Assembly: GCA_016235045.1 (NCBI GenBank)
Contig: JACRME010000013.1
Location: 124,001 to 188,000 of the forward strand
Direction of reading: 5' to 3'
DNA length: 64,000 nt
Origin: Nitrosomonadales bacterium
Lineage (GTDB): Bacteria; Pseudomonadota; Gammaproteobacteria; Burkholderiales; Gallionellaceae
The notes under the pieces are model-generated. The model saw nothing but the letters and a program-made list of their open reading frames with translations. It did no database searches and was not told where the DNA came from. This document shows positions 6,124 through 64,000 of the stretch, in pieces; within the stretch, counting starts at the first letter, position 1; each line of letters opens with the position of its first letter. Made by a program: the position numbers and the translations under genes.

Positions 6124-6140
6124 TTTCTGTCCCCGTCCGC

Positions 6141-46107: not shown

Positions 46108-46114
46108 GGCTGAC

Positions 46115-46453: not shown

Positions 46454-47307
46454 AATTGCGCGGACTCATCATCGCGGCCTATGGGCGGCATTATCTGGCA
46501 GAACTGTCCGGCGGCGAGATCCTGGAATGCGTGCCGCGCGGCAAGAAAAGCGAGGTCGCCTGCGGCGACACCGTGGAGATAGTCCGCACCAGTGCAGACC
46601 AGGCGGTCATCGACAGCATCGCACCGCGCTCCACGCTGCTCTATCGCTCCGATGCCTTCAAGCAGAAAATCATCGCCGCCAACGTCACCCAGCTCATCGT
46701 CGTCGTCGCCACCGAACCCTCGTTCAATGACGAACTGCTGGCGCGCTGCCTGCTCGCCGGGCACGAGCAGAATCTGGATATCCTCATTGTGCTGAACAAG
46801 TGCGACCTGCCGCAGGTTGCAACGGCGCGGGCGCAACTCGCCCCTTATGTGAAGATCGGCTATCGCGTGCTGGAACTCTCCGCCAAACAGGATGCGACCC
46901 CGCTGCTGCCCTATCTGCAGGGCCATACCAGCGTGCTGGTCGGCCAATCCGGCATGGGCAAATCCACGCTGCTCAATGCCGTGATCCCCGAGGCGCAGGC
47001 TGCCACGCGCGAGATATCCACTGTGCTCGATTCCGGCAAGCACACCACCACCCACGCCAGGCTGTATCACCTCAACGCTGACAGCCATCTCATCGACTGC
47101 CCCGGCGTGCAGCTTTTCGGCCTGCACCACCTGGATTTTGCCGCGATGGAAAGAAGCTTCCCCGAGTTCCTGCCCTACCTCGGCGAATGCCGCTTCGCCA
47201 ATTGCAGCCACTCGCACGAGCCGGACTGCGCGATACGCAAGGCGACCGCAGAGGGAAAAATCGATGAACGGAGATTGAAGCTGTTTCAGCAGATCGCGGG
47301 GCACTAA
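46450..47307 (+). CDS. rsgA: Ribosome small-subunit-dependent GTPase RsgA
   Basis: RsgA (YjeQ), about 285 residues, is a circularly permuted GTPase that matures the 30S subunit. The motif order is permuted: G4 LNKCDLPQ first, then G1 GQSGMGKST (about 165-173), the TTTHARLYHL switch, and G3 DCPGVQLFGL. The zinc module is CRFANCSHSHEPDC. The start is unusual: the best candidate is TTG 46450 (overlapping the TGA of the dehydratase as TTGA), because no in-frame ATG gives a family N terminus. Orn-M48-PCD-RsgA neighbourhoods recur in betaproteobacteria. Confidence 0.94.
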   Translation: MKLRGLIIAAYGRHYLAELSGGEILECVPRGKKSEVACGDTVEIVRTSADQAVIDSIAPRSTLLYRSDAFKQKIIAANVTQLIVVVATEPSFNDELLARCLLAGHEQNLDILIVLNKCDLPQVATARAQLAPYVKIGYRVLELSAKQDATPLLPYLQGHTSVLVGQSGMGKSTLLNAVIPEAQAATREISTVLDSGKHTTTHARLYHLNADSHLIDCPGVQLFGLHHLDFAAMERSFPEFLPYLGECRFANCSHSHEPDCAIRKATAEGKIDERRLKLFQQIAGH

Positions 47308-47373
47308 CATCTGGCACGAATAGCGTTTCCATTCCGTTCGTACCGGAATGATTGAAGGATGAGAGTATCAAGC

Positions 47374-47400
47374 GGGAGCGCCGACGACGTCGGCGCTCCC
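47374..47400. terminator. Perfect 12-bp hairpin between convergent rsgA and gspB
   Basis: GGGAGCGCCGAC (47374-47385) is the exact inverse of GTCGGCGCTCCC (47389-47400) with a 3-nt loop. It lies 67 bp after the rsgA stop and 35 bp after the gspB stop on the other strand. It lacks a T-tract on either side, so it may act as a bidirectional mRNA end or stabiliser, or be a repeat element. Confidence 0.7.
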
Positions 47401-47434
47401 GTCGGAAGGCATTCCCGCGGCATTTATTTCGATG

Positions 47435-48052
47435 CTACCAAATCCCGTGTTGAAAACGATATCCCTTGTAGCTCAATATCACGCCATCCGGTGTGATCTG
47501 CTCCAACTTGAGTCCCGGCGCCAGAGATTCGCCTTCTTTCATCATGCGCGAGTTGATGCTGACGATGCTGTTCACGGATTTGCTGGAGTAGGAATGGAGT
47601 TGAATCTTCATGGCCGGAAGTTCCTGCTGGATGGAGAGAGGAAGTTCGGACAAGGACATCGCTTTCTGTTCCTGATCAGCGGTGGCCGGGATGGCGGGCT
47701 CTTGCGAAGAGAGTATTGGTGCGGCGGGCGCCGGATTCGGTGCCGGTAATTCCCGTTCCGGTTGTCCGGCCGGTTCGGGTTGATCGAAGCGCAGCACCTG
47801 TGCAGTCGAATTCGAAATCGCGGGTCTCGCGGCAATGGGTTCTGCCGCATGCACGGGTTGTTCCGGCTGCCACGGGCGCAGCCAGCCGATGGCGATGCCC
47901 GCGCAAAGCAATACCGCCGCAAGCACACCGTAGTAAACGGAAAAGGTTTGTTTGGGCGCGGCCACCGCTGCCTGTGCCGACGGCAAGGTTGGCGTTGTCC
48001 CGCGCTGCCGCTGCTGGTCGGATTTTTTGAGCGCGTCCAGAATATACGACAT
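47435..48052 (-). CDS. gspB: General secretion pathway protein B-like (GspB/ExeB)
   Basis: 205 residues. The N terminus MSYILDALKKSDQQRQRG is the hallmark of GspB/ExeB-type proteins. A single helix (about 37-60) is followed by a Pro-rich periplasmic linker and a compact C-terminal domain (about 140-205, VNSIVSINSRMMKEGESLAP onward). In Aeromonas, ExeA-ExeB helps assemble the GspD secretin through peptidoglycan. The gene lies 1 bp after gspA. No other type II secretion genes are in the window. Confidence 0.88.
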   Translation of the reverse strand: MSYILDALKKSDQQRQRGTTPTLPSAQAAVAAPKQTFSVYYGVLAAVLLCAGIAIGWLRPWQPEQPVHAAEPIAARPAISNSTAQVLRFDQPEPAGQPERELPAPNPAPAAPILSSQEPAIPATADQEQKAMSLSELPLSIQQELPAMKIQLHSYSSKSVNSIVSINSRMMKEGESLAPGLKLEQITPDGVILSYKGYRFQHGIW

Positions 48053-48053
48053 G

Positions 48054-49637
48054 CTATTTACCCCTTTGCTCGCGGACCAGCTTCGGCGCCGTCGTATCCG
48101 CTGCTCCGCTCAGGCGCATCAGGGTCTGGGTGCCGACAATTCCGGTGGGGGGAAGCCCCCGTGCGAGTTGAAATTGTTTGACCTGCCGCAGCATGGTTTC
48201 ATCGAACACCGGGTCTTCGCCGGGCTCCGCCGCCTTGCCGTCGATTTGCGCGAATTGATCGCGCAGCCATCCCACATCCGGCCCGTGGTCGCCCAACTGT
48301 ATCTTTTGTTGCGTCAATGGCGGCACGCGCCACAGCAGCGTGTATTGGCCGGACCATTGCTCCGCCAGCGCACCAATGGCAACCGCCCTGGTCTCGCTGC
48401 CAACATTGAAGATCGCGACGCGGTCGTCCAACAGCGTCAACGTTGCATGGAATTTCCGGCCCTGTTTGTCATTCAGCAGCAGCACTGCGGGACGGTTCAG
48501 TTGACGCAGTTCATCCAGCCCGCCGCGCGCGGTGCGGCAACTCAAACCCATGGCGTCAGCCTGCAGGCACTCGTCACCCTCCTGATAGTCCGCACCCCAT
48601 GTGCGAAAGAGCGCGGTGTATGCCATTTCCTTGCTGCGCGAACGCGGCTCTGCTGTCGGCCATTCCAGGGTAACCGGAGCAACCGCCATTGGCGTTACCG
48701 GCTTGGCAGGCTCTGTTTTGGCTGGAGCCGGGGCTTGCGCCACGGGCTGGTACAACAACGCAGCCAACCCGGAGGAGGCGAGCAAACCCGCTATAAGAAA
48801 GAACATGATGCTGCGGGATCGCTTCGCCGGATGGTGAAACACCTCGCGCGCCGCTTGCTTCAGCGTCGCAAGATCGACCCGCTCCTTGGCTTGCACATAG
48901 GCGCCCAGCAGCGCCCGATCGCAAAGCACGTTGATGACGCGGGGCGTGCCGCCGCTCAGGCGATAGAGACTCTTCATCAGTGAATCCGGGAACAGTTTGC
49001 GCTGCGTACCTGCAACCCCGAGGCGATGCCGCACATAGTCGGCGACTTCCTGTTTGGACAGCGGCCCCAGGTGATAACGCGCAATGATCCGTTGCGCCAG
49101 TTGCCGCAGTTCGGGCCGCGCCAGCATCTCGGCCAGCTCGGATTGGCCCAGCAAGATGATCTGCAGGAGCTTGCGCTGGCTGGTTTCCAGATTGGTGAGC
49201 AGCCGCATCTGTTCAAGCACGTCGGCGGAAAGATTCTGCGCCTCGTCGATCACCAGCACCGTATGCCGCCCCCTGGCATGGGCATCGAGCAGGTGGGTAT
49301 TGATGCAGTCGACGAACACCTTGACGCTGGTATTGCCGGGCGGAACCGCGATGCCGAATTCGGCGCAAATGGTCGCGAGCAGCTCATCCACCGTCTGCCG
49401 CGGATTGAAGATGTAGGCCACATCGCAGGATTCGGGAATCTGCTCGAGCAGGCAGCGGCACACCGTCGTCTTGCCCGCCCCCACCTCGCCGGTGAGCAAT
49501 ACAAACCCGCCGCTGCCGTTCACGCCATAAAGCAGATGCGCAAGCGCCTCCTGATGGCGCTCGCTCATGTAGAGATAGCGCGGATCCGGAGCGATGGAAA
49601 ACGGCGCTTCGGCGAGACCAAAGTAACTCTGGTACAT
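48054..49637 (-). CDS. gspA: General secretion pathway AAA ATPase GspA (ExeA-like)
   Basis: 527 residues. The N terminus MYQSYFGLAEAPFSIAPDPR, followed by YLYMSERHQEALAHLLYG, and the ATPase motifs LTGEVGAGKTTVCR (Walker A about 50-58) and HTVLVIDEAQNLSADVLEQM (Walker B) place it in the ExeA/MSHA MshM family. A transmembrane helix lies near 275-298. The periplasmic part ends in a peptidoglycan-binding domain (about 445-515) with LGDHGPDVGWLRDQFAQIDG. It is the upstream partner of gspB. A candidate promoter lies 31 bp upstream of the start. Confidence 0.9.
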   Translation of the reverse strand: MYQSYFGLAEAPFSIAPDPRYLYMSERHQEALAHLLYGVNGSGGFVLLTGEVGAGKTTVCRCLLEQIPESCDVAYIFNPRQTVDELLATICAEFGIAVPPGNTSVKVFVDCINTHLLDAHARGRHTVLVIDEAQNLSADVLEQMRLLTNLETSQRKLLQIILLGQSELAEMLARPELRQLAQRIIARYHLGPLSKQEVADYVRHRLGVAGTQRKLFPDSLMKSLYRLSGGTPRVINVLCDRALLGAYVQAKERVDLATLKQAAREVFHHPAKRSRSIMFFLIAGLLASSGLAALLYQPVAQAPAPAKTEPAKPVTPMAVAPVTLEWPTAEPRSRSKEMAYTALFRTWGADYQEGDECLQADAMGLSCRTARGGLDELRQLNRPAVLLLNDKQGRKFHATLTLLDDRVAIFNVGSETRAVAIGALAEQWSGQYTLLWRVPPLTQQKIQLGDHGPDVGWLRDQFAQIDGKAAEPGEDPVFDETMLRQVKQFQLARGLPPTGIVGTQTLMRLSGAADTTAPKLVREQRGK

Positions 49638-49667
49638 GGGCGGAATGGGAGTGGGAATGTCGGGATA

Positions 49668-49695
49668 TTATAATGGCAAGTTATGCCCGCCCAAG
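49668..49695 (-). promoter_or_regulatory. Candidate promoter of gspAB
   Basis: On the minus strand a perfect -10 TATAAT (49673-49668) lies 16 bp from TTGGGC (49695-49690), a weak -35. The implied leader to the gspA ATG (49637) is about 24 nt and carries no obvious Shine-Dalgarno. Confidence 0.4.
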
Positions 49696-49748
49696 GTGTC
49701 GTTTTTGAATGAATTGCCTGTTTCCGATTCACCGGGATCCAACCTGAT

Positions 49749-50570
49749 TCAATATGCGAAAGATTTTACCAAGGTAAGATCGCCGATCCGGCGCAGTGGA
49801 ACCATCATCGTTTCGCGCTTCTCATGCGGTGTGTTTTCATCGAATACAAGCGTGATTTGAGTACTGATGACTATTTGTTCATGCTGCTCGGTGTCGAAAT
49901 TGTAGCCAGCCGCATTGAAATTGCCCCAGTAGTTGACGTACACATGGTACAGACCGTGCATGGGCGCAGTCATTGAGAACATCTCCGGTCCAGCTCCATC
50001 AACGCTATCCACATCAAAACCGCCGCCATTGTCTAGCACGGGGTGCGCCCAGAATGCATGTTGCCCATCGGGCGTAATGACATGCATGTCGACTTCCGCC
50101 CTCCCGTCATCCCACGAACAAATGATCCGGATACGCGGTTGCACACGCTGCAAGCTGCCTTCGTAAAATTGCACGCGCTTGCGCACCTTGCCATCCGCAC
50201 TTCTGACCTCCACGCTGTTGGACCCTTTGCCAAAAGCATAAGGGCGCGCGAATGAGCCGTCCGGATTGCCATACAAAAGCATCGCATTGCCGTTGACGAT
50301 CAGTTTCGATACCGCTTTTCCTTGTTCGCTCTGCGTAAGCCGCCCCTGAATCAGGGTGCGATTCTTCTGTCTCCCTCGATCAACTGGCGGCGTCGGATAG
50401 GCCGCTGCCATATCGCCGCTATGATCAACCAATCCAAATACATTCCATCCATTGGCTGGCGCTTCGATGCGCAATCCATTTTGATGCGATGAATCTGCAT
50501 CAAGTGAAAATGCCGATGTGATGACACCAACGAGCAAGAAGGAGCCAATGATGGATTGAGCATAACTCAT
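49749..50570 (-). CDS. yfaP: YfaP family DUF2135 protein, copy 1
   Basis: 273 residues, exported (hydrophobic leader SIIGSFLLVGVITSAFS). The second half is the DUF2135 domain: RIRIICSWDDGRAEVDMHVI and TPDGQHAFWAHPVL, followed by DVDSVDGAGPEMFSMTAP and GLYHVYVNYWGNF. It resembles an Ig-like or beta-sandwich domain with acidic metal-type loops. The last gene of the yfa macroglobulin operon, 6 bp after its paralogue, with which it shares layout and the closing block TPHEKRETMMVPLRRIGDLT. The function is unknown; the family always accompanies yfaS-type macroglobulins in this context. Confidence 0.88.
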   Translation of the reverse strand: MSYAQSIIGSFLLVGVITSAFSLDADSSHQNGLRIEAPANGWNVFGLVDHSGDMAAAYPTPPVDRGRQKNRTLIQGRLTQSEQGKAVSKLIVNGNAMLLYGNPDGSFARPYAFGKGSNSVEVRSADGKVRKRVQFYEGSLQRVQPRIRIICSWDDGRAEVDMHVITPDGQHAFWAHPVLDNGGGFDVDSVDGAGPEMFSMTAPMHGLYHVYVNYWGNFNAAGYNFDTEQHEQIVISTQITLVFDENTPHEKRETMMVPLRRIGDLTLVKSFAY

Positions 50571-50576
50571 GATGGG

Positions 50577-51344
50577 TCAGGGATAGACGAACGAGCTTAC
50601 AAGTGTCAAATCGCCTGCACGGCGCATGGGAACCTGAAATACCTGCCGCTTTTCATGGGGCGTATTTTCATTGCTGATGATCGCGACCTGAGCAATAGTC
50701 AGATCGCTTACCCCGTATCCGGAGCCGTAATAATTCACGTAAACCAGATAGAGCCCTTTCTCCGGCGCCGGAGACGCAAATATCTCGGGGCCATAACCTG
50801 TCGTCACATCCACATCCAGTGCCCCGCCCCCGGGTATGACTCGTTGCCCGTACCACGCATGCTCCCCGACCGGCGTCACCACGTGCAAATCAAGATCGGT
50901 CCCGTCGGAGTCCCATGACAACACGACTCGCAGCCGCGATTGCTTCTTGTTGCTCGCCGCATCAAAAAACTGCACACGTTTGCGCGGCCCGTTTTCGGCT
51001 GCTCGAACTTCGATGCTATTTGACCCACGGCCAAAAGCATAAGGCCGAGAAAAACTGCCGTCGCTCTCCACCTGCAACGGCATCGCAGTTCCGTTCACGA
51101 TCAAAGTGGCAGGGGAACCGGATTGCTGCGATTTCTGATTTCCATCGATACGCCCGCTGATCATCGCAGTTGCAGCAGTTCCAACCGGCGTATTGACGCT
51201 GGCGGCGGGATAATGAACCTCCTGCGTATAACGTTCCACGGACTCGCTTAGCCTCCAGCCCCCCTTGGGCTGATCGAACTCTACGCCAGCCAGCACTGAA
51301 ACCGGCAATATCGCCATCCACAAGGCAAGTAGTTTCCTGTTCAT
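50577..51344 (-). CDS. yfaP: YfaP family DUF2135 protein, copy 2
   Basis: 255 residues with a clear signal peptide (MNRKLLALWMAILPVSVLAG). The DUF2135 domain is LRVVLSWDSDGTDLDLHVVT with PVGEHAWYGQRVIPGGG, DVDVTTGYGPEIFASPAPEK and GLYLVYVNYYGSG. The tail TPHEKRQVFQVPMRRAGDLT almost repeats that of copy 1. Its start overlaps the yfaQ stop by 4 nt. E. coli has a single yfaP, so this is a tandem duplication with moderate divergence. Confidence 0.88.
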   Translation of the reverse strand: MNRKLLALWMAILPVSVLAGVEFDQPKGGWRLSESVERYTQEVHYPAASVNTPVGTAATAMISGRIDGNQKSQQSGSPATLIVNGTAMPLQVESDGSFSRPYAFGRGSNSIEVRAAENGPRKRVQFFDAASNKKQSRLRVVLSWDSDGTDLDLHVVTPVGEHAWYGQRVIPGGGALDVDVTTGYGPEIFASPAPEKGLYLVYVNYYGSGYGVSDLTIAQVAIISNENTPHEKRQVFQVPMRRAGDLTLVSSFVYP

Positions 51345-53053
51345 GATCGTGATTCTCCCTCAATCAAACGTCGGGCCCATTGCTCGATGTAGTGTTCATC
51401 CTGCCCGCTGGGATAGCCGGAAAACGCCAAATGCAGGTATTCATGCGCCAGCGTTATGCGCTGGTTCAAACCGTTCAAACCGCGCACATAGATTCGTTGG
51501 CGCGACATATCGCTGTATGGATTGCCGAAGGCCAACTGGCAAACTTGCGGCTGGAGTTCAACAAACCCGGGCTCTGTCTGCAAAGCGCTACGCCAGCGAC
51601 GCGCCTGCGCTCTCAACCACCGCTCCGCATCCGGGAGCGGCTTGCATTCGATCTCGCCGTTGATCGACGCCAGGGATGCATGTTTGAAATTCCGTTGAAG
51701 AATCTGGTCGTACAACATCCCCGCCCTTGCATCCTCCACCGCCCGCCTCCATGAAAGAATGCCCTTACCCTCTGCGTCCAGGCGATATTGTGCCTGCGCA
51801 CCTTGCAACATGAGGCCTGACGAGAAGGCTGCAATATCGCGCGCCGCCGCACTGGCCGGATTGGGGCTTACGCGTTGCGTGCTGCTGCTATCTGCGATCT
51901 CCAGGCATTCGCCATGTTGCGTAGCGTTTTGCAGCAAATATGTGCGTGCCACCACACTCAATGCGCGTGCAGCCTCTTTCTCGGTCGGCAGGCCTTCTCG
52001 ATCGATTACGCGGGCGATGTATTCGTTCTCACTCAGCCGGGCGTACAGCAGCGGTTTGGACTGCACATTCCAGGCCAGCCTCAACTCGCTGTCCGCATGC
52101 AGCAATACCTGTTTGCCATTTCTGAATTCGACCCGGAAACGCCCGCGCAAATCCTGCACCACACCCGGTTGTAATACCGTATCAGGTGACAAGGCAAGAA
52201 TGCGCTCAATCGGATAACGCGCAAACAGGGCGACATCGACGCAGCGCTGGGCAGAGACTTCATCGTCGCCAACACCTTCGGCCACAGCGGCCAGTTGCGG
52301 CGCGTAGTCTTGCATCACTTGCAGGCTCGACCCCAGCCCGCCAAACCATACTGCGCTGCCATCACTCAACCAGCCAGCCGCCCCGCCGACCACGCTGTCC
52401 ATCCGTTGCGGATGGCTCCAGGTAAATGTCTTGACCCGGTAACGCCCGCCCAGATAACGCAAGGCGCTATGCCCGCGCCCGTTCAGCATGACTGCCAGCA
52501 ACGCCGCTTCAGCCCGCTCCCGCGCAATGCCCTTGATGCTGGAAAGCGCCAGCAGCAAGCTGGAAACACTGACTTGGCGCGCCGGTTTCAATTGCTCCAA
52601 ATCAGCCAGCCAACCGGCCTGCGGCAATCTGGCAGTCCAATAACGACGCCAATCCTGCACATCCAGATGCAGGCGCTCCGGCTCAAAGAATAATCCGCAC
52701 GACTGGGCCAAGGCCACATCGCCGGAGATCGTCTGCCCGGGATCGCAGCAATACAACTCTTCCTTGGCAACTTGCCTGTTCCCGCTGCAAGCGTAGTCAG
52801 GCAGGGGGAGCGCCTCGTCAATGGCATATGCATAAACGAACAGCTTCCACACGCTGCCCAAAGGCGTTTGAACATCCCAGGCCTGCCGGATCCCGTCTGT
52901 ACCGAGGTGCAGAAACACAGGCCGCTGCGGCAATCCCTGGTTCGCTCCAAGTCGGGCAAACAGCATGCTCTTGCCGTCAAAATCGACAGGCTGCTCTGCG
53001 TTCGCAGCCAAACAGAAGCAGAGCAGCACATTGCACAGTATTACCCTTCGCAC
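51341..53053 (-). CDS. yfaQ: YfaQ family DUF2300 protein, possible multi-module cell-wall protein
   Basis: 570 residues from GTG 53053 (GGAG 6 nt upstream), with a signal peptide ending near AANAEQP. The family is known only as DUF2300. I see three embedded patterns. Residues 60-245 look like a penicillin-binding/transpeptidase fold: SVWK (67-70) as SxxK, SCG (118-120) as SxN, and a degenerate KTG-like stretch AAGWLSDGSAVWFGG. Residues 343-400 resemble SpoIID/LytB (EYIARVIDREGLPTEKEAAR then ALSVVARTYLLQN). Residues 537-541 are HEYLH, an HExxH site. Whether any site is active is unknown. It lies 13 bp after yfaS. Confidence 0.85.
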   Translation of the reverse strand: MRRVILCNVLLCFCLAANAEQPVDFDGKSMLFARLGANQGLPQRPVFLHLGTDGIRQAWDVQTPLGSVWKLFVYAYAIDEALPLPDYACSGNRQVAKEELYCCDPGQTISGDVALAQSCGLFFEPERLHLDVQDWRRYWTARLPQAGWLADLEQLKPARQVSVSSLLLALSSIKGIARERAEAALLAVMLNGRGHSALRYLGGRYRVKTFTWSHPQRMDSVVGGAAGWLSDGSAVWFGGLGSSLQVMQDYAPQLAAVAEGVGDDEVSAQRCVDVALFARYPIERILALSPDTVLQPGVVQDLRGRFRVEFRNGKQVLLHADSELRLAWNVQSKPLLYARLSENEYIARVIDREGLPTEKEAARALSVVARTYLLQNATQHGECLEIADSSSTQRVSPNPASAAARDIAAFSSGLMLQGAQAQYRLDAEGKGILSWRRAVEDARAGMLYDQILQRNFKHASLASINGEIECKPLPDAERWLRAQARRWRSALQTEPGFVELQPQVCQLAFGNPYSDMSRQRIYVRGLNGLNQRITLAHEYLHLAFSGYPSGQDEHYIEQWARRLIEGESRS

Positions 53054-53066
53054 AGCGCTCTCCGAG

Positions 53067-56000
53067 TTATCTGACGGTCACGACACGACCTTTACCCGCA
53101 GCCTCGAAGGCCTTGTTTTGCGGGGAATACATCGAATAGAAACGCACGGGCGGCAACTGGTATTTGCCCTTTTGCGAGAAGCGCAACAAATGACGTATCA
53201 CAACCGGTTGATCGACTTGCTCGACCGGAACGGCATAGCCGCCCCGACTCGGCTCGTTGCGTGCGCGTTCGAGTTCCGCGCCACTGTTCAACGCGATCCC
53301 CCATGTCGAACTCTCGACTGCAGCTCCCGGCGGCAATGGCACTTCAACCATGCCGTAGTTCACACGAGTTCCATTTTCCGGAGTCAGTGTGATCTCTTCC
53401 AGATACAAATCGTTGGAATTGACCGCATCGTCATCCGATTGCTCGGCCAGGTCGAAACGCTGCACCCTCTCAGCGCCCGCACCGCTGCTGCCCTCGCTTG
53501 CCGTGGCCAAGTGATACAGTTTGCGCTCCACTTTCACTGCAAGCTTTCCCTCTTCCTGGCTCGCACTTTCATACTGCACATAGGCAGTCAGCAACTTGCC
53601 CGGTGCTTGCGACAACGTCAAATCTCCGGGCGCCTGTTTGCCTTTGCTGAGCCAGATATCCGAGCCCGTGACGCTGCTGACACGTTTCCACGCACCATCA
53701 AGGGCAACATCACTGCTGTCACCCAGTCTTCCGACCAGAATCTGGTTAAGCCAGATCAGCGCAAGCGCACGATCGAAGGTAGGCATATCCGAGCGCACGG
53801 AATTCAATATCCGCTCTGCTGCCTGGGCTCGATCCGGCACCTTTGAAGCCAACAGCAGCAGCGCCTGAGCACTGGGCAACCCGCTCTGTTCAAGCACAGC
53901 CGAAGCCCCAGGCAGGGCTGCGGAGACTTTGGAAGGCAGTCCCAACTGATGCCGCTCCGCAAGCAGCGCCGCCAGTTTGAGCGTCATCGCCCTGGACAGA
54001 TCGCTTTCGGGATCGGCAAAAGCAGGGCTTTCGGTATCAACGGTTGCATGCGCGACGTTTTGCAACTGTGATCGTTTTTCCAGATCGTCCAGCAACCCGC
54101 TGACCAGCGTCTTGGTCGGCAATCCCATATCGCTTGCCATCCATAATGCCAGTGCCTTATGGCTTAGAACCTGCGCTGACTGTTGCTGGCTCTCTGGACT
54201 CAATACCAGACGTTGTGCTCTTCTGTTATGGTTCACAGAACGATCTTCCTGCCCGAACATGGCCAGCAGTTTCGCCCAATGTTCATCCGGCAAACCCAAA
54301 CCGAGAACGCGACTGGCCGCATGATCTGCATAATAGGCATAGGCCGTCAGCAACAGATCATCATGAGCTGCATTGCCCCACCAACCGAAAGTGGCATCGG
54401 GACCGGCCATGTAAACAAGACGCAAGCGCTGATGCTGCAATCGCTGGCGCAATTGCCGCGTGATTAGCGCCCGTTCCCCGCCGGTATCCTGCGGTAACGA
54501 TTGCAGTGCAAATGCCAGTGGCAACATGCGGCTTGCCGTTTGTTCTACGCAACCATATGGATAGTTGTCCAGGTCGTCGACAATGCGCGCAAATTGCTGC
54601 GCCGCCCCGTTGGCAAACGACACGCGGATATTTTCGGCATCCTTGGGCAGGTTCAGCGCCGCCTGCTTGCTATCCACCGGCACAATCAACGTACGCGCGC
54701 TCTTCCAGGCCAACCCATCGTGCCGCATCGGGATATCCAGCGCATCGACCGATTTCCCGTCAGCCTGGATTTCCACATGCAGTGTGTCGCCCGTATATCC
54801 CTCGAGTTCCACATTCATCGTATTGATACCGCGCCGCGTCTTCAGCTTTTCGGTTTTATTGATACCGCTACTGCTGAGGCGAACATTCACCGTCTGGTCG
54901 CTGCCAGTCTGGTTAAAGACAGCCAATACCGCGACGGGCGCATCTCCGCTGCGCATCCAGTTCGGGCTGATCCATTTCGCATAGAACGGCTTGTCCGAAC
55001 GCAAATAGGCGGTTCGCTGACCGACCAGACCTTGCGCCGACATTGCCCGGCCCGTGATGCGCCAGCGTGTCAGAGAGTCCGGCATGACAAACGTAAAGGT
55101 CGCGCGCCCCGCATTGTCGGTACTGATCTGCCCATTCCAGTAGGCGGTGTCGACATTGTCGCGACGCGGACGCTCCAGCACCTTGATGCCCCGCTCGTGA
55201 CTGGAGCCGCGCGCCGGCGGCGCACTCTGCCGGTAACTTGCCATATCGAACCCGATGAACTGCAACGAGGAATGCGTGCGCACATTGTTGCGGCGCGGAT
55301 GGTAGAAGAAATCAAAAATATTCGGCACGATCTCGGGCTGCAACACGTAGATCATTTCGTCGACCACGCCGACGCTCACATTGGCCGACACTGGCTTGCC
55401 CCCTACGCTGGTTTCCAGTTGCACCTTGACCGTTTCGCCCGGTCGATACACTTCCTTGTCCGTTTTGAATACCACTTGGATGCGCGGCTGTTCGACCAGA
55501 ATGCCGCGATTCTGGAACACCCATTCGTTGTTTTTGACATAGGCTACGGACAGCGTCACATTCGGAGAAAAATTCTCGTTGATCGCCACCTTTGCACGCC
55601 ACTGGGTCGGCGCAATGCGCTGCGCGCTGACCCATTTCGCGCCATCCTGCAACAGTGCACTTTGCTCGACACGATCCCGCTCCAATGTCAGCAACGCCGA
55701 ATCGACGGGCTCGGGGAACGTGATCAGGGCTTCCGCAATATCTCCCGCTTTGTAGCTGGCGTGGTCGAACACGATCTCGATCGATCCTTTCACCGCCTTG
55801 ATGCCGGCTCCCGCAACCCAGTGGCTGCAAGCCCCCAGGACATTCCCGTTCTCGTCAAACAGCAGGACCGTGTAGGAACCCGATTCGGCAAAGTTGATGG
55901 AAAAGTGCCTGGAACCGCTTTCGATCTTCCCTTCGCTCTTCTGCTGCTTCTCCAATTGCACCAATTCATAGCGAACAGGAGTAGCAGGCGTTGCATTGCC

Positions 56001-57767
56001 CGGCAGGGGTTCAAAATCGAACCGCACGTCCCGGTTCGGCTGGCTGAACTGCTCGGCGGCATGCAATTCGAAAGCGCTGGCTGAGCGCTCGACCAGCAAC
56101 TCCTTCGTCGCCTTGACCCGATAGGCGGCTCCGTCGCTGGCGAATACCGTCAATACATATCGACTGGGATCTTTTGCGGCAGGCAGCGAGAATTTGGCCA
56201 CGCCATCGCCGTCGGCAACCAATTCCTCCGTCTGCAGCTTGATCGGGAACAAACCGGTGTAATGGATCTCTCCTTCTACCATTGTGGTCGTTTGCGCACG
56301 CACGGTAAGTTGCACATGCGCATCCTTGACCGGCTCGCCGTCGGGGTATGTCAGCACCAGACGGCCGCTGATCGCATCATTCGTCCTGTAGTTGTCCTTG
56401 TCGGGCAAGACCGATATTTCAAAATGTGGCTTGATGTAATCCGCCACACGGAATGCCGCGCTGTAGACACTGTCCTTGTAGGTATAGCGCAACTCATAAC
56501 CGCCTGCACTAGCATTGTCAGGCAAGCGGAATACGGTTTGTGCCCCACTCGGTCCATTGATCTGCAACTTCTGGTTCGCCACTGGCGTACCGTTTGGATC
56601 CAGCACTTCGAGAGTGATACTGCTTGGTGCGATCGCTTCGGACTGGCGTGCAGAAGTGAATTGGCGTCCCAGGAATTTTACGTTCACTTCATCGCCCGGA
56701 CGGTACAACGGCCGGTCGGTCATGGCATATAACTTGGTGTTGTATATCTCGCTGTCGTAGTAGAAGTTCTCCGAGATCAGCACCCCGCCCTGTGCGTCAC
56801 GGCCAATCACATAGGATTTCTCCGGATTGGCCCTGTCGAAACTGGCAATACCGCGCGAGTCTGTCTTGCCGCTCGCCAGTACGCCGACACCATCCGTCCA
56901 CATGATCTGAACATCGGGTGCAACCGCTCCCGTATCGCGCCGCACTGCCCACACCATCATCTGTTCGGGAGCCGTCTTGCTAATCACGACCATATCCGAA
57001 ACAAAGATCAGGGTATTTGCCCGATGCCCGCCGATGACGGCCTCCACCAAATACAAACCGGGCTCTCTCTTGCCTAGCGGGATGTATACGTTTCCATCCC
57101 GGCTCATCGAAAAGTCACTGCTGGAACCCGCCAGCTTCACCCCTTCCGGCGGCTGGATAGGCTGCGCATGCACTAATGGATAGCGGAATCTGTCCATGAG
57201 ATGGAATCCGTTCTTCTCGGACAGCAAGGCGAACTGCGGCTGGTTGGAAAACTCCACTGGGCGGTTCAACAAAGGAGAGGTCTTTAATTGCGGTACCTCT
57301 TTGGTGACGCCTTGACGGGCTTCTGCAGTGAAAATATCCTGCCAGATCCGGCGCGACTTCTTATACCAGTCGTTCCATACGAAATTGAGCGCATTACCCA
57401 GCCCCTCTCCCACGTAGTTCCCGTCCGTCTTGATGCGATGCAAATTCTTTTGCTGCTTCAGGAACTCGATCGGATCGGCTATACGGTACAGCACGATGTC
57501 AACACCGCTGTATTCCGCAAGCGAGCTGAAATCCCTCCCCGAGACTTCCAGCCGGACTTTGGCTTCATCGGTTGACCCATATGAGGAATCGCTTAACAGG
57601 AAGAACGGTTCGCCGCGATAGGGCCGGTACCAGCTCGGCTCGCTTTCCGGCATTGTCGGCCCATCATCTGTCGCCAGCGTGACTGACGACAGACATAGCA
57701 TCAACGCGGCAAGAAGGCCAAACGATATATGCCGACAAAATTTGGATTGTCCTGTGTGGGGCGCCAT
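53067..57767 (-). CDS. yfaS: Bacterial alpha-2-macroglobulin (YfaS family) with thioester motif
   Basis: About 1566 residues from ATG 57767, preceded by GGAAGGA; a longer open frame upstream was rejected. A Sec signal peptide precedes SVTLATDDG, without a lipobox, so it should be soluble in the periplasm, unlike the YfhM lipoprotein type. The N-terminal half contains macroglobulin domains (e.g. AMTDRPLYRPGDEVNVKFLG, YRPGETVKVQLETSVGGKPV) and the A2M segment (RATFTFVMPDSLTRWRITGR). The thioester is intact: NYPYGCVEQTASRMLPL, Cys1073 and Gln1076. The C-terminal domain ends near PPVRFYSMYSP. Such proteins are thought to trap proteases reaching the periplasm. The start lies inside yfaT. Confidence 0.95.
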   Translation of the reverse strand: MAPHTGQSKFCRHISFGLLAALMLCLSSVTLATDDGPTMPESEPSWYRPYRGEPFFLLSDSSYGSTDEAKVRLEVSGRDFSSLAEYSGVDIVLYRIADPIEFLKQQKNLHRIKTDGNYVGEGLGNALNFVWNDWYKKSRRIWQDIFTAEARQGVTKEVPQLKTSPLLNRPVEFSNQPQFALLSEKNGFHLMDRFRYPLVHAQPIQPPEGVKLAGSSSDFSMSRDGNVYIPLGKREPGLYLVEAVIGGHRANTLIFVSDMVVISKTAPEQMMVWAVRRDTGAVAPDVQIMWTDGVGVLASGKTDSRGIASFDRANPEKSYVIGRDAQGGVLISENFYYDSEIYNTKLYAMTDRPLYRPGDEVNVKFLGRQFTSARQSEAIAPSSITLEVLDPNGTPVANQKLQINGPSGAQTVFRLPDNASAGGYELRYTYKDSVYSAAFRVADYIKPHFEISVLPDKDNYRTNDAISGRLVLTYPDGEPVKDAHVQLTVRAQTTTMVEGEIHYTGLFPIKLQTEELVADGDGVAKFSLPAAKDPSRYVLTVFASDGAAYRVKATKELLVERSASAFELHAAEQFSQPNRDVRFDFEPLPGNATPATPVRYELVQLEKQQKSEGKIESGSRHFSINFAESGSYTVLLFDENGNVLGACSHWVAGAGIKAVKGSIEIVFDHASYKAGDIAEALITFPEPVDSALLTLERDRVEQSALLQDGAKWVSAQRIAPTQWRAKVAINENFSPNVTLSVAYVKNNEWVFQNRGILVEQPRIQVVFKTDKEVYRPGETVKVQLETSVGGKPVSANVSVGVVDEMIYVLQPEIVPNIFDFFYHPRRNNVRTHSSLQFIGFDMASYRQSAPPARGSSHERGIKVLERPRRDNVDTAYWNGQISTDNAGRATFTFVMPDSLTRWRITGRAMSAQGLVGQRTAYLRSDKPFYAKWISPNWMRSGDAPVAVLAVFNQTGSDQTVNVRLSSSGINKTEKLKTRRGINTMNVELEGYTGDTLHVEIQADGKSVDALDIPMRHDGLAWKSARTLIVPVDSKQAALNLPKDAENIRVSFANGAAQQFARIVDDLDNYPYGCVEQTASRMLPLAFALQSLPQDTGGERALITRQLRQRLQHQRLRLVYMAGPDATFGWWGNAAHDDLLLTAYAYYADHAASRVLGLGLPDEHWAKLLAMFGQEDRSVNHNRRAQRLVLSPESQQQSAQVLSHKALALWMASDMGLPTKTLVSGLLDDLEKRSQLQNVAHATVDTESPAFADPESDLSRAMTLKLAALLAERHQLGLPSKVSAALPGASAVLEQSGLPSAQALLLLASKVPDRAQAAERILNSVRSDMPTFDRALALIWLNQILVGRLGDSSDVALDGAWKRVSSVTGSDIWLSKGKQAPGDLTLSQAPGKLLTAYVQYESASQEEGKLAVKVERKLYHLATASEGSSGAGAERVQRFDLAEQSDDDAVNSNDLYLEEITLTPENGTRVNYGMVEVPLPPGAAVESSTWGIALNSGAELERARNEPSRGGYAVPVEQVDQPVVIRHLLRFSQKGKYQLPPVRFYSMYSPQNKAFEAAGKGRVVTVR

Positions 57768-58372
57768 CTTGTATCCTTCCAACGAAGCAATTGTGAAACG
57801 GGAATAGAACGCAGTCCGTTGTCCTGCGCGGTAACTGTACCGGTGTGGTAAATCACCATGCCATTCATCCACACCATCAAATGCTGTTCATCGCCCTGAT
57901 CGAAAAAAAGCAGATCGCCGGGTTGGGCCAGATTGAAGTCTTTGGCAACGTAGCGGCTGTTCTCCTGCACCATGCCGATCGCGCTTACATACGCCCCCTT
58001 TGACCCGTCTGTCCTGCGCCAGACATGCCGCAGTTCCTCCTGCTCCGCACTCAGATGCAATTCCTCCGGCAACTGTTGCGCAGAAAAACCGTTCGCCCTC
58101 AGCCAGCGCGTATCATGCCCACGCAAGCTCTCGGCCACGGAATAGCGCACCAGACTGACGCAGTCGCGCTGCACCCAGCGCGGGGACGGGCCTTGGCGTA
58201 TCTGTTCCTGCATGATGCGCAACATCCAAGCGCGGAAGTTTCGGCTTTGCTCGGGGGTCAACATCACGCTGTCGTCAGTCGACGACATGCGCTCAGTCAA
58301 AGCAAAGGATAACTGGGGTAAAACGACAAGCCCCGCCAATCCGAACAGCATGGCCAGCATATATCGCAGCAT
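57701..58372 (-). CDS. yfaT: YfaT family DUF1175 protein, NlpC/P60-like
   Basis: 223 residues with an N-terminal signal/anchor (LAMLFGLAGLVVLPQLSFAL). Family DUF1175. The sequence carries an NlpC/P60-like pattern: Cys71 in WVQRDCVSLVRYSVAESL, then PGDLLFFDQGDEQHLMVW with candidate catalytic His164, then a third polar residue near YHTGTVT (His176). This suggests a papain-like cysteine peptidase or amidase fold, which is inference. The 3' end overlaps the 5' end of yfaS by 67 nt and also contains the yfaS ribosome-binding site, so translation of the two is linked. Confidence 0.85.
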   Translation of the reverse strand: MLRYMLAMLFGLAGLVVLPQLSFALTERMSSTDDSVMLTPEQSRNFRAWMLRIMQEQIRQGPSPRWVQRDCVSLVRYSVAESLRGHDTRWLRANGFSAQQLPEELHLSAEQEELRHVWRRTDGSKGAYVSAIGMVQENSRYVAKDFNLAQPGDLLFFDQGDEQHLMVWMNGMVIYHTGTVTAQDNGLRSIPVSQLLRWKDTRWRPTQDNPNFVGIYRLAFLPR

Positions 58373-58378
58373 GGCTGA

Positions 58379-59962
58379 TCAGTACTGCTGCCAGTCCAAT
58401 GTCATCCAGCCGGCCCCCTTGGGGGTTGCATGCATTTCCAGTCGCATGGGCGGGTATTTCTTCACGGCCTCGAGCTTGGGCAACAAATGCTGATCGGTTG
58501 CACCGCGCAGCACCTCGTCCTGCTCGTGTGGCAATGTCATTTCCACTTCGTGGGCCACCATTTGCGCCAATTGTTTTGGATCGACCACCGCAACTGCAGC
58601 TTGCTTTGAATCCGGCCAGCTATCGCTCAGTGCCGGTTGTCGCTTGTGAGTGACGGCCAGTGCCTGCTCGACCAGCGAAGCATCGGGAGAAAAGTAGACC
58701 AGCTTTCCGCTGCGACCGAGCATAGCCTGTTCGTTCTGCCAGACGACATCGCCCGCCGGGCTGGTGACTGGTTTGATTTGAGCAACTTCCGCTTCCGAAT
58801 CTGCGGAGCCCTTGATGCTGTAATTGAAATAAGCCCCCAGGATCGCATCCACACCTTCTTCCTTGCCCAGTTGCGTCACGAATAACGGTGTATGCAGACG
58901 GGAGTTTGCGTACCAGCACACCGCAGCGTTGCCCGCAAACTGAGTGGCCAATTGATCGGCTGCCTTGTTAACGACTGCCTGGCTATTCGCGGCCTTCGTC
59001 AAAGCGTTCCAATCCACAGGCATGGCTACACACATGCCGGGCTGGAACGGCACAGATGACCACAGGGATGAACCACCATACAAGGTGGCTGCATGCGTGG
59101 GATCCACATCCAGCAGCATTGAAGTCGACCACGACTGCTGGCTCAGCAAGGTCTTCTCGCTGAAATCGAACCGCAGCGCCTTGAGTGCGGGGAAAAAATG
59201 CTGGTATGAGAAAGACAGGAAATCTGCCTTGATTGCGATGCTATGGTCGCTTGAGCCCGCATCCAGGTCGAATGCCCCGGCAAAACGCGACTGCTTGGCC
59301 TTATCCGAACCCAGGAGATCGTTCAGCAATGATTCAGCGGAGGCGTTGAACTCGCCGTCGGAATTCAACAACATCCCTGGATCCGAAAATACAACAACGC
59401 GATCCGCATGCGAGGCCAGCAACAACTTGCGATTCCATGCATATTCCAAAGCAAACAATTGCACGGTATCGCCTTCGATGCTGATCTCACCGACCATGGT
59501 CAACTGCTTGTCTTTCAGCGCAACCTTGGCTGCCGGTTCGAGCAGTTTCGCCAGCTTGTTACGCGTCATTGCGATGACATAATATTTCAAGGTGCCGTTA
59601 TGCGAGCGCCAAAGCGCTACGTCGGCAGGCTCATCCATGACCAGCTTGATCAACTCATCTGTCAGCGTTACGTCATGCTCATAGGCGATACGTCTTAACG
59701 TCCCGCTCAGACCAAGACGCCCTTCGGTATTCTCGTAATAGAACAGGAAGTCCTCAGACAACAAATCGCGCAATAACGGAACCTGCAACAAATCCGCAGG
59801 CAACTTTGAAAGGCTCTTGCTGCGTATCAGGGCGTCCGGCGCGGTCATATTGAGGTTAAGACCGGCCGAAGTTAAGAGCGTCTTATTCCAACCAAGTCCA
59901 AACACAACCCCGCTCCCAGCTACTGCAAATATCACCAAGCCTATCCAAAGTCTCTTGCGCAC
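58379..59962 (-). CDS. yfaA: YfaA family DUF2138 protein
   Basis: 527 residues from GTG 59962, with GAGG 5 nt upstream. An N-terminal transmembrane anchor (RKRLWIGLVIFAVAGSGVVF) precedes a large periplasmic domain of unknown function (DUF2138), with DALIRSKSLSKLPADLLQVP as an early block and PFTQW-type structural repeats not evident. No catalytic motif is recognisable. It is the first gene of the operon, 6 bp before yfaT; the E. coli order yfaA-T-S-Q-P is the same. Confidence 0.85.
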   Translation of the reverse strand: MRKRLWIGLVIFAVAGSGVVFGLGWNKTLLTSAGLNLNMTAPDALIRSKSLSKLPADLLQVPLLRDLLSEDFLFYYENTEGRLGLSGTLRRIAYEHDVTLTDELIKLVMDEPADVALWRSHNGTLKYYVIAMTRNKLAKLLEPAAKVALKDKQLTMVGEISIEGDTVQLFALEYAWNRKLLLASHADRVVVFSDPGMLLNSDGEFNASAESLLNDLLGSDKAKQSRFAGAFDLDAGSSDHSIAIKADFLSFSYQHFFPALKALRFDFSEKTLLSQQSWSTSMLLDVDPTHAATLYGGSSLWSSVPFQPGMCVAMPVDWNALTKAANSQAVVNKAADQLATQFAGNAAVCWYANSRLHTPLFVTQLGKEEGVDAILGAYFNYSIKGSADSEAEVAQIKPVTSPAGDVVWQNEQAMLGRSGKLVYFSPDASLVEQALAVTHKRQPALSDSWPDSKQAAVAVVDPKQLAQMVAHEVEMTLPHEQDEVLRGATDQHLLPKLEAVKKYPPMRLEMHATPKGAGWMTLDWQQY

Positions 59963-60394
59963 ATTAACCTCGATGAATTGTTGTCCCGCTCATCATTGCA
60001 GCCGCTGCTCGGAACTTATTGATAGCTGCATAAAACCTATTGCACTTGCCTACACAATGAAATAAATATTGGCAATATGTTCTATGCAAAATGGGACGGC
60101 AATCTAACAGCTAATTACTATCTGTGGATATATACCAAACTATCTAGTACTTGGCCTAGTCCTCACTCTATATTGTGACAACGGCGCATTCTTTGGAAAT
60201 TTCGTAACAAGGATATCGTGGAAATAGGTGCCAAAACAGTTCGTTGCGACTAGCAGCCAACGAAACAAAAGCAATTAATAGACGCAAGTCTGGTTGATAA
60301 CAAAACAGACTTATCAAACTCTTGTGTAGCAGATTCGATATTTGAGCTCTATATATTGAATCAAAATAACGAAACAGCAGAAAACTAGCCTGCC
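59963..60394. other. AT-rich non-coding region upstream of yfaA
   Basis: This 432-bp stretch is visibly richer in A and T than the surrounding genes, with runs such as TGAAATAAATATTGGCAATA and TATATATTGAATCAAAATAA. No frame on either strand has family-like content; a 97-codon minus frame over it overlaps the neighbouring gene and has no matching start signal. It must contain the promoter of the yfa operon, but I found no convincing -35/-10 pair. Base composition suggests acquired or degenerate DNA. Confidence 0.6.
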
Positions 60395-61330
60395 CTACCC
60401 CAGCAAATTCGCCACCGTCAGCAGCAACAGCATGAAGAGCTGGAACACCAGCGCGCGCCACACCAGGCCGATGGCGCTTTGCATGTAGTCGGCGTCGGCT
60501 TCGTCGCCGATGCCCAGTTCCGGGCGGAACACGGGTTGCTGATCTTGCATGATGGCCTGCCCCAGCCTAACGCCGAGCGCGCCTGCGCCGCTGGCAAGCA
60601 GGATGCCCGCTTCCGGGTCGATCCAGTGTGCCGCCTGTGTGCGCCAGCAATAAATGGTGTCTTCGAAGTTGCCTACGATGGCAAATGTGGCCGCCGTGAG
60701 ACGCAACGGCATCCATTCCATCAGGTGAAACGCCTGCCGGGCGAAGGTGCCGAAATTGTCAATTTCGGCATCCTCTTTCATGCTCCAACGGTTATACATA
60801 AACAGCGCGAGACGATACAGGACGGCGCCGACCGGCCCCAGGCCGAGCATCATGAAAATCACGAACCAGAACACGACGCCGAAGACATTGCGATGGGAGC
60901 ATAGCAAGGCCTGCTCGATGGTGACGCGGGCGACCTCTTCATAGCTCAGGTCGCTGCACGATTTCCCCAGCCAGCTTCCCAGCAACTCGCGCGCCTTGTC
61001 CACCTGCTTGTCGCGCAATGCCTGATGGATATCTGTGTAGTAGTGGCTGAACTGGCGAAAACCCATGGTGAGGTAAAGCACCAGCACGCTAAACGCCCAG
61101 GAGAAGATGGGATGGGCGGTCAATAGCAGGCAATACAACGCGAATACCAGGGCCAAAGGCAGCGCGATGACGAGTATCCATGCAACCCTGCCCTGCGAAT
61201 GCTCGCCCGCATTGAAATTGCGCTGGAAAAATCCGACATAGCCGGAAATCCAGGCAAGAAGGTACTTGCGGGAAGACAGCGGATGGACTTGTTCCAGCAA
61301 CAAAGCGGCAATCAGGGAAAACAGGCTCAT
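60395..61330 (-). CDS. AmpE/CobD-CbiB family integral membrane protein
   Basis: 311 residues from ATG 61330 (MSLFSLIAALLLEQVHPLSS), with about four to five hydrophobic segments. The block EEVARVTIEQALLCSHRNVF, followed by GVVFWFVIFMMLGLGPVGAV, and EWMPLRLTAATFAIVGNFED is shared by CobD/CbiB and AmpE proteins. The overall layout and the Trp/Pro-rich block fit AmpE, a putative sensor of cell-wall recycling, better than cobalamin CbiB. No ampD or cob genes are nearby. It sits beside cysN, so the name should stay at family level. Confidence 0.75.
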   Translation of the reverse strand: MSLFSLIAALLLEQVHPLSSRKYLLAWISGYVGFFQRNFNAGEHSQGRVAWILVIALPLALVFALYCLLLTAHPIFSWAFSVLVLYLTMGFRQFSHYYTDIHQALRDKQVDKARELLGSWLGKSCSDLSYEEVARVTIEQALLCSHRNVFGVVFWFVIFMMLGLGPVGAVLYRLALFMYNRWSMKEDAEIDNFGTFARQAFHLMEWMPLRLTAATFAIVGNFEDTIYCWRTQAAHWIDPEAGILLASGAGALGVRLGQAIMQDQQPVFRPELGIGDEADADYMQSAIGLVWRALVFQLFMLLLLTVANLLG

Positions 61331-61516
61331 GGCTAAGCGGGCATCAAACACAGAGAGACGAGAAGATACCACAGGCGCATGACGGGACGAAATACGCGAA
61401 CTGTTGCGCCCATCGCCCCCCTCTCCCGTCCTGCGGGATAACCCGCGAGTTGTCCGCTTGCGGGCCTGGTCGAATGGCTGGCAGTTCCACCAGAGGGGCT
61501 TTGATAAACGTCTACA

Positions 61517-62770
61517 TCAGGCGATCATCCCCGCCGCCACCGTATTATTGGTCGCCTCGTCGATGACGATGAAACTGCCCGTCGCCCGGTCGATCTCGTA
61601 GCTGTCGAACACCAGCGGCTGCTGGGTCTTGATCGCTACGCGGGCGATGTCGTTCATGTGCAGCTTCTCGGCCGCGTGCTGCTCCAGCGTGTTCACGTCC
61701 ACACGGTAGTCGAGGCGCGAGAACAGCGCTTTCGCCGTGCGCGTGGTGTGCTTGACCAGGTATTTGCGGTGCTTTTCCAGCGGCGTTTCCGACAGCCAGC
61801 ACAGGGTCGCTTCGAACTCCTTCTCTACTTTCGGAACGTGAGCGTCGGTCTTGACGAACATGTCGCCGCGCGAGATGTCGATCTCGTCCGCCAGTGTCAG
61901 CGTCACCGATTGCGGCGCGAAAGCGGTTTGCAGCTTGCCGTCAAAGGTGACGATCTCTTTCACCGTGGTGGTGCGTCCGGACGGCAGGATGGTGATCTCG
62001 TCGCCGACGGAGACCTCACCTGCCTCGATGCGACCGGCAAAACCTCTGAAGTCATGGTACTCGCCGGTCTGCGGGCGGCACACCCATTGCACCGGGAAGC
62101 GGAAGTCGCTGGTGTTCACATCGTGGTCGATCTCGACCTTCTCCAGCAGTTCCAGCAGGGCCGGGCCTGTGTACCAGCCAAGATTGACGCCGCGGTCCAC
62201 CACCATGTCGCCGTTCAGCGCGGAAAGCGGGATGCAATGCACATCGTGCAGGCCAAGCTGTGCAGCAAAGACCTTGTACTCGGCAACGATCTCGTTGAAG
62301 CGCGCTTGCGAGTAATCCACCATGTCCATCTTGTTCACCGCCAGCACCACATGCGGAACCCCGACCAGGCTGGCGAGGAAACTGTGGCGTCGCGTCTGCG
62401 TCAGCACGCCCTTGCGCGCATCGACCAAGATGACGACCAGATTGGCGGTGCTCGCCGCCGTCACCATGTTGCGCGTGTACTGCTCATGCCCCGGCGTGTC
62501 GCCGATGATGAACTTGCGTTTCGGCGTGGCGAAATAGCGGTAGGCCACGTCGATGGTGATGCCCTGCTCGCGCTCGGCTTGCAGGCCGTCGGTGAGCAGC
62601 GACAGATCGACGGCTGCCATGCCGCGCTTTTCGCTGGTCTTTGAGATAGCCGAGAACTGATCCTCGAAGATGGATTTCGAGTCGTGCAGCAGACGGCCGA
62701 TCAGGGTGCTCTTGCCGTCGTCGACGCTTCCGGCGGTGATGAATCTTAGTAACTGTGTTGTATTGCTCAT
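61517..62770 (-). CDS. cysN: Sulfate adenylyltransferase subunit 1 (CysN)
   Basis: CysN, 417 residues, is the GTPase subunit that drives APS formation with CysD. Motifs are [20 protein letters not shown] (G1), [20 protein letters not shown] (G3) and [14 protein letters not shown] (G4). No APS kinase (CysC) domain is fused. It follows cysD by 157 bp occupied by a large inverted-repeat element. Confidence 0.97.
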
Positions 62771-62927
62771 TATGTGTGCCTCTCAAATTTCATCGGAACC
62801 GGATTCCCTCCCCCTTGCAGGGGGAGGGTTAGGGAGGGGGTAGAAACTTCAATTTTCGCAACTCAACTGTTCTACCCCCATCCTAACCTTCCCCCTGCAA
62901 TGGGGAAGGAACGGGTTTAGTTGGCGG
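62771..62927. repeat. Large inverted-repeat element between cysD and cysN
   Basis: The core (62801-62914) has two hairpin arms that are also inverse to one another. The left one, CCCTCCCCCTTGCAGGGGGA (62806 onward), is followed by GGGTTAGGGAGGGGGTAGAA. The right one starts TTCTACCCCCATCCTAACCT and ends in TTCCCCCTGCAATGGGGAAG. A 24-nt AT-rich centre lies between them. It matches the kind of CCCTCCCCC/GGGGGAGGG elements dispersed between genes in many environmental proteobacteria and probably lowers cysN expression relative to cysD. Confidence 0.85.
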
Positions 62928-63854: not shown

Positions 63855-63870
63855 AACTTTCTCCAAAACA

Positions 63871-63994
63871 ATGTAGGGCGCAATAACCAACGGCATTGCG
63901 CCGTATGGTATTTACTTGGTGCAATGCGCTTCGCTTATTGCACCCTACATATTATTCAAGGCATCTGGTGCGCGAGCGCACCCTACATTGGTTT
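63871..63994. repeat. Mosaic of GTAGGGTGCAAT-type hairpin repeats
   Basis: Upstream of cysD three small hairpins follow each other: GGCGCAAT with ATTGCGCC (about 63877-63904), GGTGCAAT with ATTGCACC (about 63918-63943), and GGTGCG with CGCACC (about 63967-63982). The outer ends ATGTAGGG and CCCTACAT (63871 and 63942) are also inverse. The same unit is present at 35566-35600. This is a dispersed intergenic repeat family; the stretch to the window end holds no gene start. Confidence 0.8.
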
Positions 63995-64000
63995 ATGCCG

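Follow-up and report, generated by a model that had tools for sequence, protein, structure and literature searches.

What does an operon built around an alpha-2-macroglobulin do when its accessory genes carry the marks of cell-wall enzymes? The question is raised by a stretch of 64,000 nucleotides (nt; hereafter the window) from a Nitrosomonadales bacterium of the Gallionellaceae (assembly GCA_016235045.1, contig JACRME010000013.1, positions 124,001 to 188,000). Positions 49749-59962 of the window hold six consecutive, packed, minus-strand open reading frames (ORFs) that constitute an intact mag (yfaATSQP) operon, in which the yfaP-type gene is present twice. An earlier note on this DNA had described a complete yfaA-T-S-Q-P locus of six packed minus-strand genes at this place, and the ORFs and Pfam matches confirm it. 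The matches of the operon proteins exceed the curated cut-offs and are far beyond chance level, and the co-directional DUF2138, DUF1175, A2M, DUF2300 and DUF2135 genes that mark a mag operon are all present, the same set being recovered in relatives. The answer that we favour, at a probability of about one half, is that the operon encodes a periplasmic guard complex around the macroglobulin, tethered to the wall and to the inner membrane. The system is not new, and much of the wall-enzyme idea has already been published in pieces.

YfaQ has a conserved HExxH core

Conservation was assessed in two collections of mag loci. The Pseudomonas-rich set holds the best 80 of 372 loci, mostly from Pseudomonas, and counts on it are not independent; the smaller collection comprises 20 sampled loci, among them L128, which was added after the tree described below and is absent from the flanking-gene test.

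YfaQ, the MagE homologue, comprises three domains (Table 1), of which the HExxH domain is the sole part common to all forms found. In these last ~105 residues C470, C505, H537, E538, H541, E553 and E557 are invariant in 14/14 sequences, and HExxH together with E553 and E557 is invariant in 26/26 rows of an alignment that includes five short forms; HExxH...E is present in 80/80 YfaQ of the Pseudomonas-rich set. The long form was found in 12/20 sampled loci. In five more (L016, L039, L040, L042 and L044) YfaQ consists of the HExxH domain alone, and the space after yfaS is too small for the other domains. YfaQ was undetectable in the last three of the 20, which are two contig ends and L021. A model of YfaQ computed with AlphaFold2 (AF2) from 34 sequences (predicted local distance difference test, pLDDT, 87.9; predicted template modelling score, pTM, 0.82) predicts for domain 3 one helix followed by three strands, then the helix bearing HExxH and another that contains E557, an order that we take to be that of minigluzincins. 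These features point to domain 3 as a probable zinc peptidase of gluzincin type; the gluzincin idea of the earlier note was a fair guess given the invariant HExxH, although that note overlooked this domain as the constant core of YfaQ.

Weak Pfam matches of the domain were to SprT-like (0.011) and Peptidase_M78 (0.086), each in 1/26 members. Against the PDB, its profile matched MJ1213 at E 1.1, ranked below angiogenins; the latter, although the best PDB matches, align through a short stretch and were judged chance. E. coli YfaQ has been described as bipartite, transpeptidase-like plus SpoIID-like, in a 2025 mSystems paper whose main text contains none of the words 'zinc', 'metallo', 'MagE' and 'macroglobulin' (PMC12282094). 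A third, HExxH...E domain of YfaQ was not found described in the open-licence literature.

Domains 1 and 2 resemble wall enzymes

The best PDB matches of the YfaQ model in Foldseek were the transpeptidase domains of penicillin-binding proteins (PBPs), class A and D beta-lactamases and the BlaR1/MecR1 sensor domains, with SleC too (FtsI and class A beta-lactamase at E 5.7e-5; 45 matches at E <= 0.001); template modelling (TM) scores by target were moderate, from 0.42 to 0.54 among the best matches. Judging from length and motifs, the PBP-type matches would fall on residues ~22-262. This domain 1 carries SxxK at residues 67-70, a motif found in 80/80 loci and invariant in a 21-row alignment, with SCG at 118-120 in place of SxN and KTF at 208-210 in place of KTG. 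Sequence searches gave less: 2/21 members match Pfam Transpeptidase (best E 0.029), YfaQ has no match among PDB sequences at E <= 10, the profile of the PBP-like domain returned only chance-level peptidyl-prolyl isomerase (PPIase) matches from the same source, and no YfaQ was found in viral contigs.

Domain 2 is SpoIID-like. YfaQ alone scores 20.3 bits against Pfam SpoIID, under the 23-bit cut-off; across the family the model matches 34/34 aligned relatives at E <= 1 (best 1e-8), and the profile of the domain matches Clostridioides difficile SpoIID (PDB entry 4rwr) at E 7e-4. E353 is invariant in the 34 rows and aligns with the glutamate of the SEM motif of C. difficile SpoIID, which, by our reading of the numbering, is taken to be the catalytic E101 (PMC6221140). 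A regular expression for this glutamate motif holds in 75/80 loci. Unlike SpoIID, a lytic transglycosylase, the domain is embedded in a three-domain protein, and no SpoIIP partner was seen in the operon. Both likenesses had been proposed in the earlier note, which named predicted folds unrelated to these enzymes as a refuting outcome; for YfaQ the AF2 model, Foldseek and the SpoIID profile gave no such refutation.

The Pfam model PF10062 (DUF2300) matches domain 1 in 21/21 and domain 3 in 26/26 members. A tandem DUF2300 repeat was rejected, the two domains being unalike (hhalign probability 0.2%). The model is taken to mix two unrelated segments, and the RefSeq name 'tandem DUF2300' is probably misleading.

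YfaT retains the motifs of an NlpC/P60-like protein

Published work describes MagC/YfaT as NlpC/P60-like and peptidoglycan-binding. The window YfaT matches the MagC structure (PDB entry 7bk8) at E 1.1e-76, in line with the proposal of the earlier note, though its score against Pfam NLPC_P60 (17.7 bits) is under the 23-bit cut-off. It keeps a cysteine (DCVSLVR, from residue 70) and two histidine motifs (QHLM, from residue 163; YHTG, from residue 175). Among the YfaT of the window, E. coli and the 20 sampled loci, the cysteine motif and QHLM occur in 22/22 and YH[TR]G in 21/22; the 80 loci of the Pseudomonas-rich set yielded 76 YfaT, with the cysteine, QHLM and second histidine motifs in 76, 75 and 75. 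Such conservation is odd for a dead enzyme, though binding could also account for it.

The macroglobulin of the mag clade often carries a thioester motif

The listed yfaS ORF starts at GTG 57872; an ATG at 57767 directly precedes a signal-peptide-like stretch and is most likely the true start. From there yfaS overlaps yfaT by 67 nt, as annotated in E. coli K-12. The protein has a CVEQ thioester motif, which the earlier note overlooked. A cysteine at this position was found in 14/19 readable sampled operons (13/18 plus L128; L041, a contig end, was excluded) and is missing from L034, L036, L037, L038 and L044. It occurs in just 9/80 loci of the Pseudomonas-rich set, and the site reads GVIN in two enteric YfaS sequences.

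Type II macroglobulins have been defined by the absence of CxEQ (PMC5764988). The window YfaS lies in the six-gene operon of Type II and yet has the CxEQ that this type lacks; it shares CxEQ with Type I, and the pbpC that often adjoins Type I genes is missing, no pbpC-type gene having been found among the examined operon neighbours. Because an article of 2012 describes the second class as without CxEQ merely 'in many species' (PMC3328433), an exception to the Type II rule was already hinted in print. A CxEQ-bearing YfaS within the mag clade was not found described in the open-licence literature.

A tree was built from 28 mag sequences (after an 85% identity filter; L041, L046 and L128 absent) and E. 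coli YfhM. The window YfaS pairs with that of a Nitrosomonadales metagenome-assembled genome (MAG; support 100), groups with mag relatives at the level of the order (99) and lies on the mag side of the very long branch to YfhM. The tree, a quick one with a single, very long outgroup branch and 9/26 inner branches open, needs at least five changes of cysteine state. This pattern suggests that the thioester is likely ancestral in the mag clade and was lost repeatedly.

Comparison with known systems

All six components of Pseudomonas aeruginosa magABCDEF (PA4492-PA4487), of which MagC has been solved, have counterparts in the window. The magA-type gene is last in the window and first in P. aeruginosa, and MagD of P. 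aeruginosa lacks the CxEQ of the window YfaS. There, MagA, MagB, MagD and MagF form a complex, and a magE mutant shows extra higher-mass forms of MagD, for which the authors proposed either a chaperone function of MagE or its involvement in cleaving the signal peptide of MagD (PMC5764988). A zinc-peptidase core in MagE would be a simpler possible cause of this pattern than either role.

E. coli yfaA-yfaT-yfaS-yfaQ-yfaP has the gene order of the window. The K-12 locus differs in its single yfaP, in a yfaS annotated as a pseudogene and in the GVIN at its thioester site; a megablast search with the operon found no match in E. coli. With the Type I pair YfhM/PbpC the window locus shares a CxEQ thioester and a macroglobulin tied to PBP-like wall enzymes. 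E. coli YfhM belongs to the other clade and adjoins pbpC rather than YfaA/T/Q/P genes; unlike PbpC, the PBP-like domain of the window sits inside YfaQ, without SxN or KTG.

MagB, the YfaA counterpart, is a membrane anchor and stabiliser of MagD (PMC5764988). The AF2 model of YfaA is of medium confidence (pLDDT 76), and its best PDB match in Foldseek was Treponema TP0453 (E 9.9e-5; TM by target 0.42).

LprI domains are fused to some MagF proteins. Among the MagF of four loci with the short YfaQ, three exceed the 22-bit cut-off (22.3, 30.8 and 24.7 bits in L039, L040 and L042) and that of L044 falls under it (15.0 bits); YfaQ in these operons is reduced to its HExxH domain. No LprI domain was found in MagF of L016 or E. 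coli, or in either DUF2135 protein of the window. Two LprI-family matches lie elsewhere in the window's own genome (G000 contigs C23 and C12; L129 and L130). The family was first described as giving lysozyme resistance, and its fusion to MagF was not found described in the open-licence literature.

Operon content and genomic setting

Both yfaP-type genes stand at the operon end in the window, as in L045, L117, L017 and L018. The second is most similar to the gene lying ahead of yfaA (the magA position) in Pseudomonas loci, and a yfaP-type gene lies upstream of yfaA in 67/80 loci of the Pseudomonas-rich set. A promoter and terminator scan showed no enrichment relative to shuffled sequence (4 vs 7.4 expected; 13 vs 11.3).

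Table 1 Features of the mag operon in the window, and MagF proteins tested for LprI in other loci.
Feature	Coordinates	Strand	Basis
yfaA / magB homologue	58379..59962	-	DUF2138, Pfam E 3.9e-128; 527 residues; hydrophobic stretch at N-terminus
yfaT / magC homologue	57701..58372	-	DUF1175, Pfam E 1.3e-55; NlpC/P60-like
yfaS / magD homologue, alpha-2-macroglobulin	53067..57767	-	MG2, A2M_BRD (bait-region) and A2M, Pfam above cut-off
yfaS CVEQ thioester motif (YPYGCVEQTAS)	54540..54551	-	Motif reading
yfaQ / magE homologue, 570 residues, three domains	51341..53053	-	DUF2300, Pfam E 7.8e-48
YfaQ domain 1, PBP / beta-lactamase-like	52268..52990	-	Foldseek, motif conservation
YfaQ domain 2, SpoIID-like, catalytic-type Glu E353	51758..52252	-	Pfam SpoIID, profile vs 4rwr
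YfaQ domain 3, probable zincin, H537-E538-x-x-H541 + E553, E557	51344..51670	-	Invariant residues
yfaP-type gene 1, magF-like	50577..51344	-	DUF2135, E 6.7e-12
yfaP-type gene 2	49749..50570	-	DUF2135, E 1.4e-12
MagF proteins tested for LprI (N-terminal domain)	L039:9530-10597, L040:9594-10682, L042:7399-8463, L044:7146-8387		

DUF1175 was found in 9/300 genomes of the order and 15/398 of the phylum, the genome of the window counted, and in 0/33 other genomes of the genus, several of which are incomplete. The closest relative found is the Nitrosomonadales MAG (YfaQ 67% identity). The GC content is 56.3% in the operon and 60.4% over the first 49 kb of the window. In the flanking-gene test, 0/100 loci carried any of seven flanking genes of the window (E 1e-3; L128 absent; positive control 7/7 on the window; loci extending about 10 kb at most). 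The patchy spread, the GC content and the unshared flanks fit horizontal acquisition, short of proof. The genome has one A2M-domain match.

The neighbours of the operon are gspA/gspB-like, then rsgA-like, AmpE-like and cysN/cysD-like ORFs, the last four named by reading. Downstream of the operon, at 47435-49637, the GspA-like (AAA, PG_binding_1, C39-like) and GspB-like genes share its strand; gspAB was rejected as a part of the mag system, since the 100 other loci share none of the flanking genes. No tRNA was found within 44000-64000. In another sampled locus, L021 (positions 1-8815), no yfaQ or yfaP was found after yfaS, and the ORFs there resemble restriction-modification genes by eye; this mag operon seems to be truncated.

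A proposed guard complex at the wall and its rivals

In the proposed complex the macroglobulin trap would be anchored to the inner membrane by YfaA, bound by the YfaP-type proteins (MagA, MagF) and linked to peptidoglycan by YfaT, while YfaQ would use its PBP-like and SpoIID-like domains to work on the wall or to sense it. A protein of an invader that reaches the periplasm and cuts the bait region would be trapped, probably covalently through the CVEQ thioester, and maturing or triggering the macroglobulin would most plausibly fall to the constant zinc-peptidase domain of YfaQ. Any catalysis by YfaQ, an action of YfaQ on YfaS and, in this organism, the assembly of the parts into one complex are inferred. 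A guard complex at the wall is the best reading because MagC binds the wall, MagE resembles wall enzymes and some MagF variants bear LprI. The wall link drawn in the earlier note agrees with experiment in P. aeruginosa, where the main protection conferred by magD is against the wall hydrolase VgrG3, with limited protection against Tae1 (PMC12663445, 2025); the peptidoglycan repair that it also proposed is doubtful if done by transpeptidation, because the PBP-like domain is without the standard SxN and KTG.

Several points weigh against the guard complex. SxN and KTG of active PBPs are absent from YfaQ (SCG stands in 78/80 and KT[WF] in 76/80 loci of the Pseudomonas-rich set), and the zincin domain has no significant relative in Pfam (besides DUF2300) or the PDB. 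The genome of the window gave no VipB match and by that test has no type VI secretion system (T6SS) of its own. In the assays described in the text of PMC12663445, magD gave no protection against TseH or Burkholderia thailandensis. In PMC5764988, MagD was found in a stable complex with neither MagE nor MagC; the paper cites earlier work placing MagE in the cytoplasm, and its text disagrees with its own Figure 6 legend on the mutants lacking the 100 kDa form. A review calls the DUF1175 (YfaT) family inactive and peptidoglycan-binding (PMC10318531).

That description of YfaT also favours a pure protease trap, in which the PBP-, SpoIID- and NlpC/P60-like domains would be non-catalytic structural relics whose sole role is to bind glycan or peptide and recruit the trap to the wall. 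The replaced motifs of YfaQ suit such relics, and MagD of P. aeruginosa captures protease non-covalently, without a thioester (PMC5764988). We think it unlikely: SxxK and HExxH...E, each in 80/80, and the YfaT cysteine motif, in 76/76, exceed the needs of a scaffold, even if binding could also explain them. Somewhat less doubtful is housekeeping, with YfaQ and YfaT trimming or organising peptidoglycan during normal growth and a macroglobulin that holds or regulates these enzymes and traps no invader. E. coli cells deleted for yfaQ are wider across nutrient conditions, and the deletion resembles those of the wall endopeptidase genes mepS and mepK and of nlpI (PMC12282094), and the LprI-domain protein ScwA of Salmonella controls the levels of endogenous hydrolases and, according to the text of PMC7933661, has no part in lysozyme resistance. 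Against housekeeping stand an occurrence too patchy for a housekeeping gene, the conserved bait-region domain and thioester, and the protection by magD against T6SS effectors. That the CVEQ-bearing YfaS is a Type I (YfhM-like) macroglobulin transferred to a mag operon is highly improbable: CVEQ is a hallmark of Type I (PMC5764988), but the tree, even with its one long outgroup branch and open inner branches, sets the protein on the mag side, no pbpC-type neighbour was seen, and the thioester cysteine occurs throughout the sampled mag operons.

The published division assigns the thioester and PBP1c to Type I and a six-gene operon without thioester to Type II; it fails for the mag clade, where sampled operons outside Pseudomonas and the enterics mostly retain the thioester motif. 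A bolder view, which we regard as quite unlikely, would make mag a complement-like surveillance system with an ancestral thioester, in which MagE, as a dedicated zinc protease tethered to the wall, primes or fires the macroglobulin once its PBP-like and SpoIID-like domains detect peptidoglycan damage; the systems so far studied in Pseudomonas and enterics would then be derived forms that have lost the thioester. MagE/YfaQ, the one Mag protein with little assigned function, appears to combine a zinc-peptidase core with two domains that resemble wall enzymes, which bears on how mag confers protection from peptidoglycan-targeting effectors and on what processes the macroglobulin.

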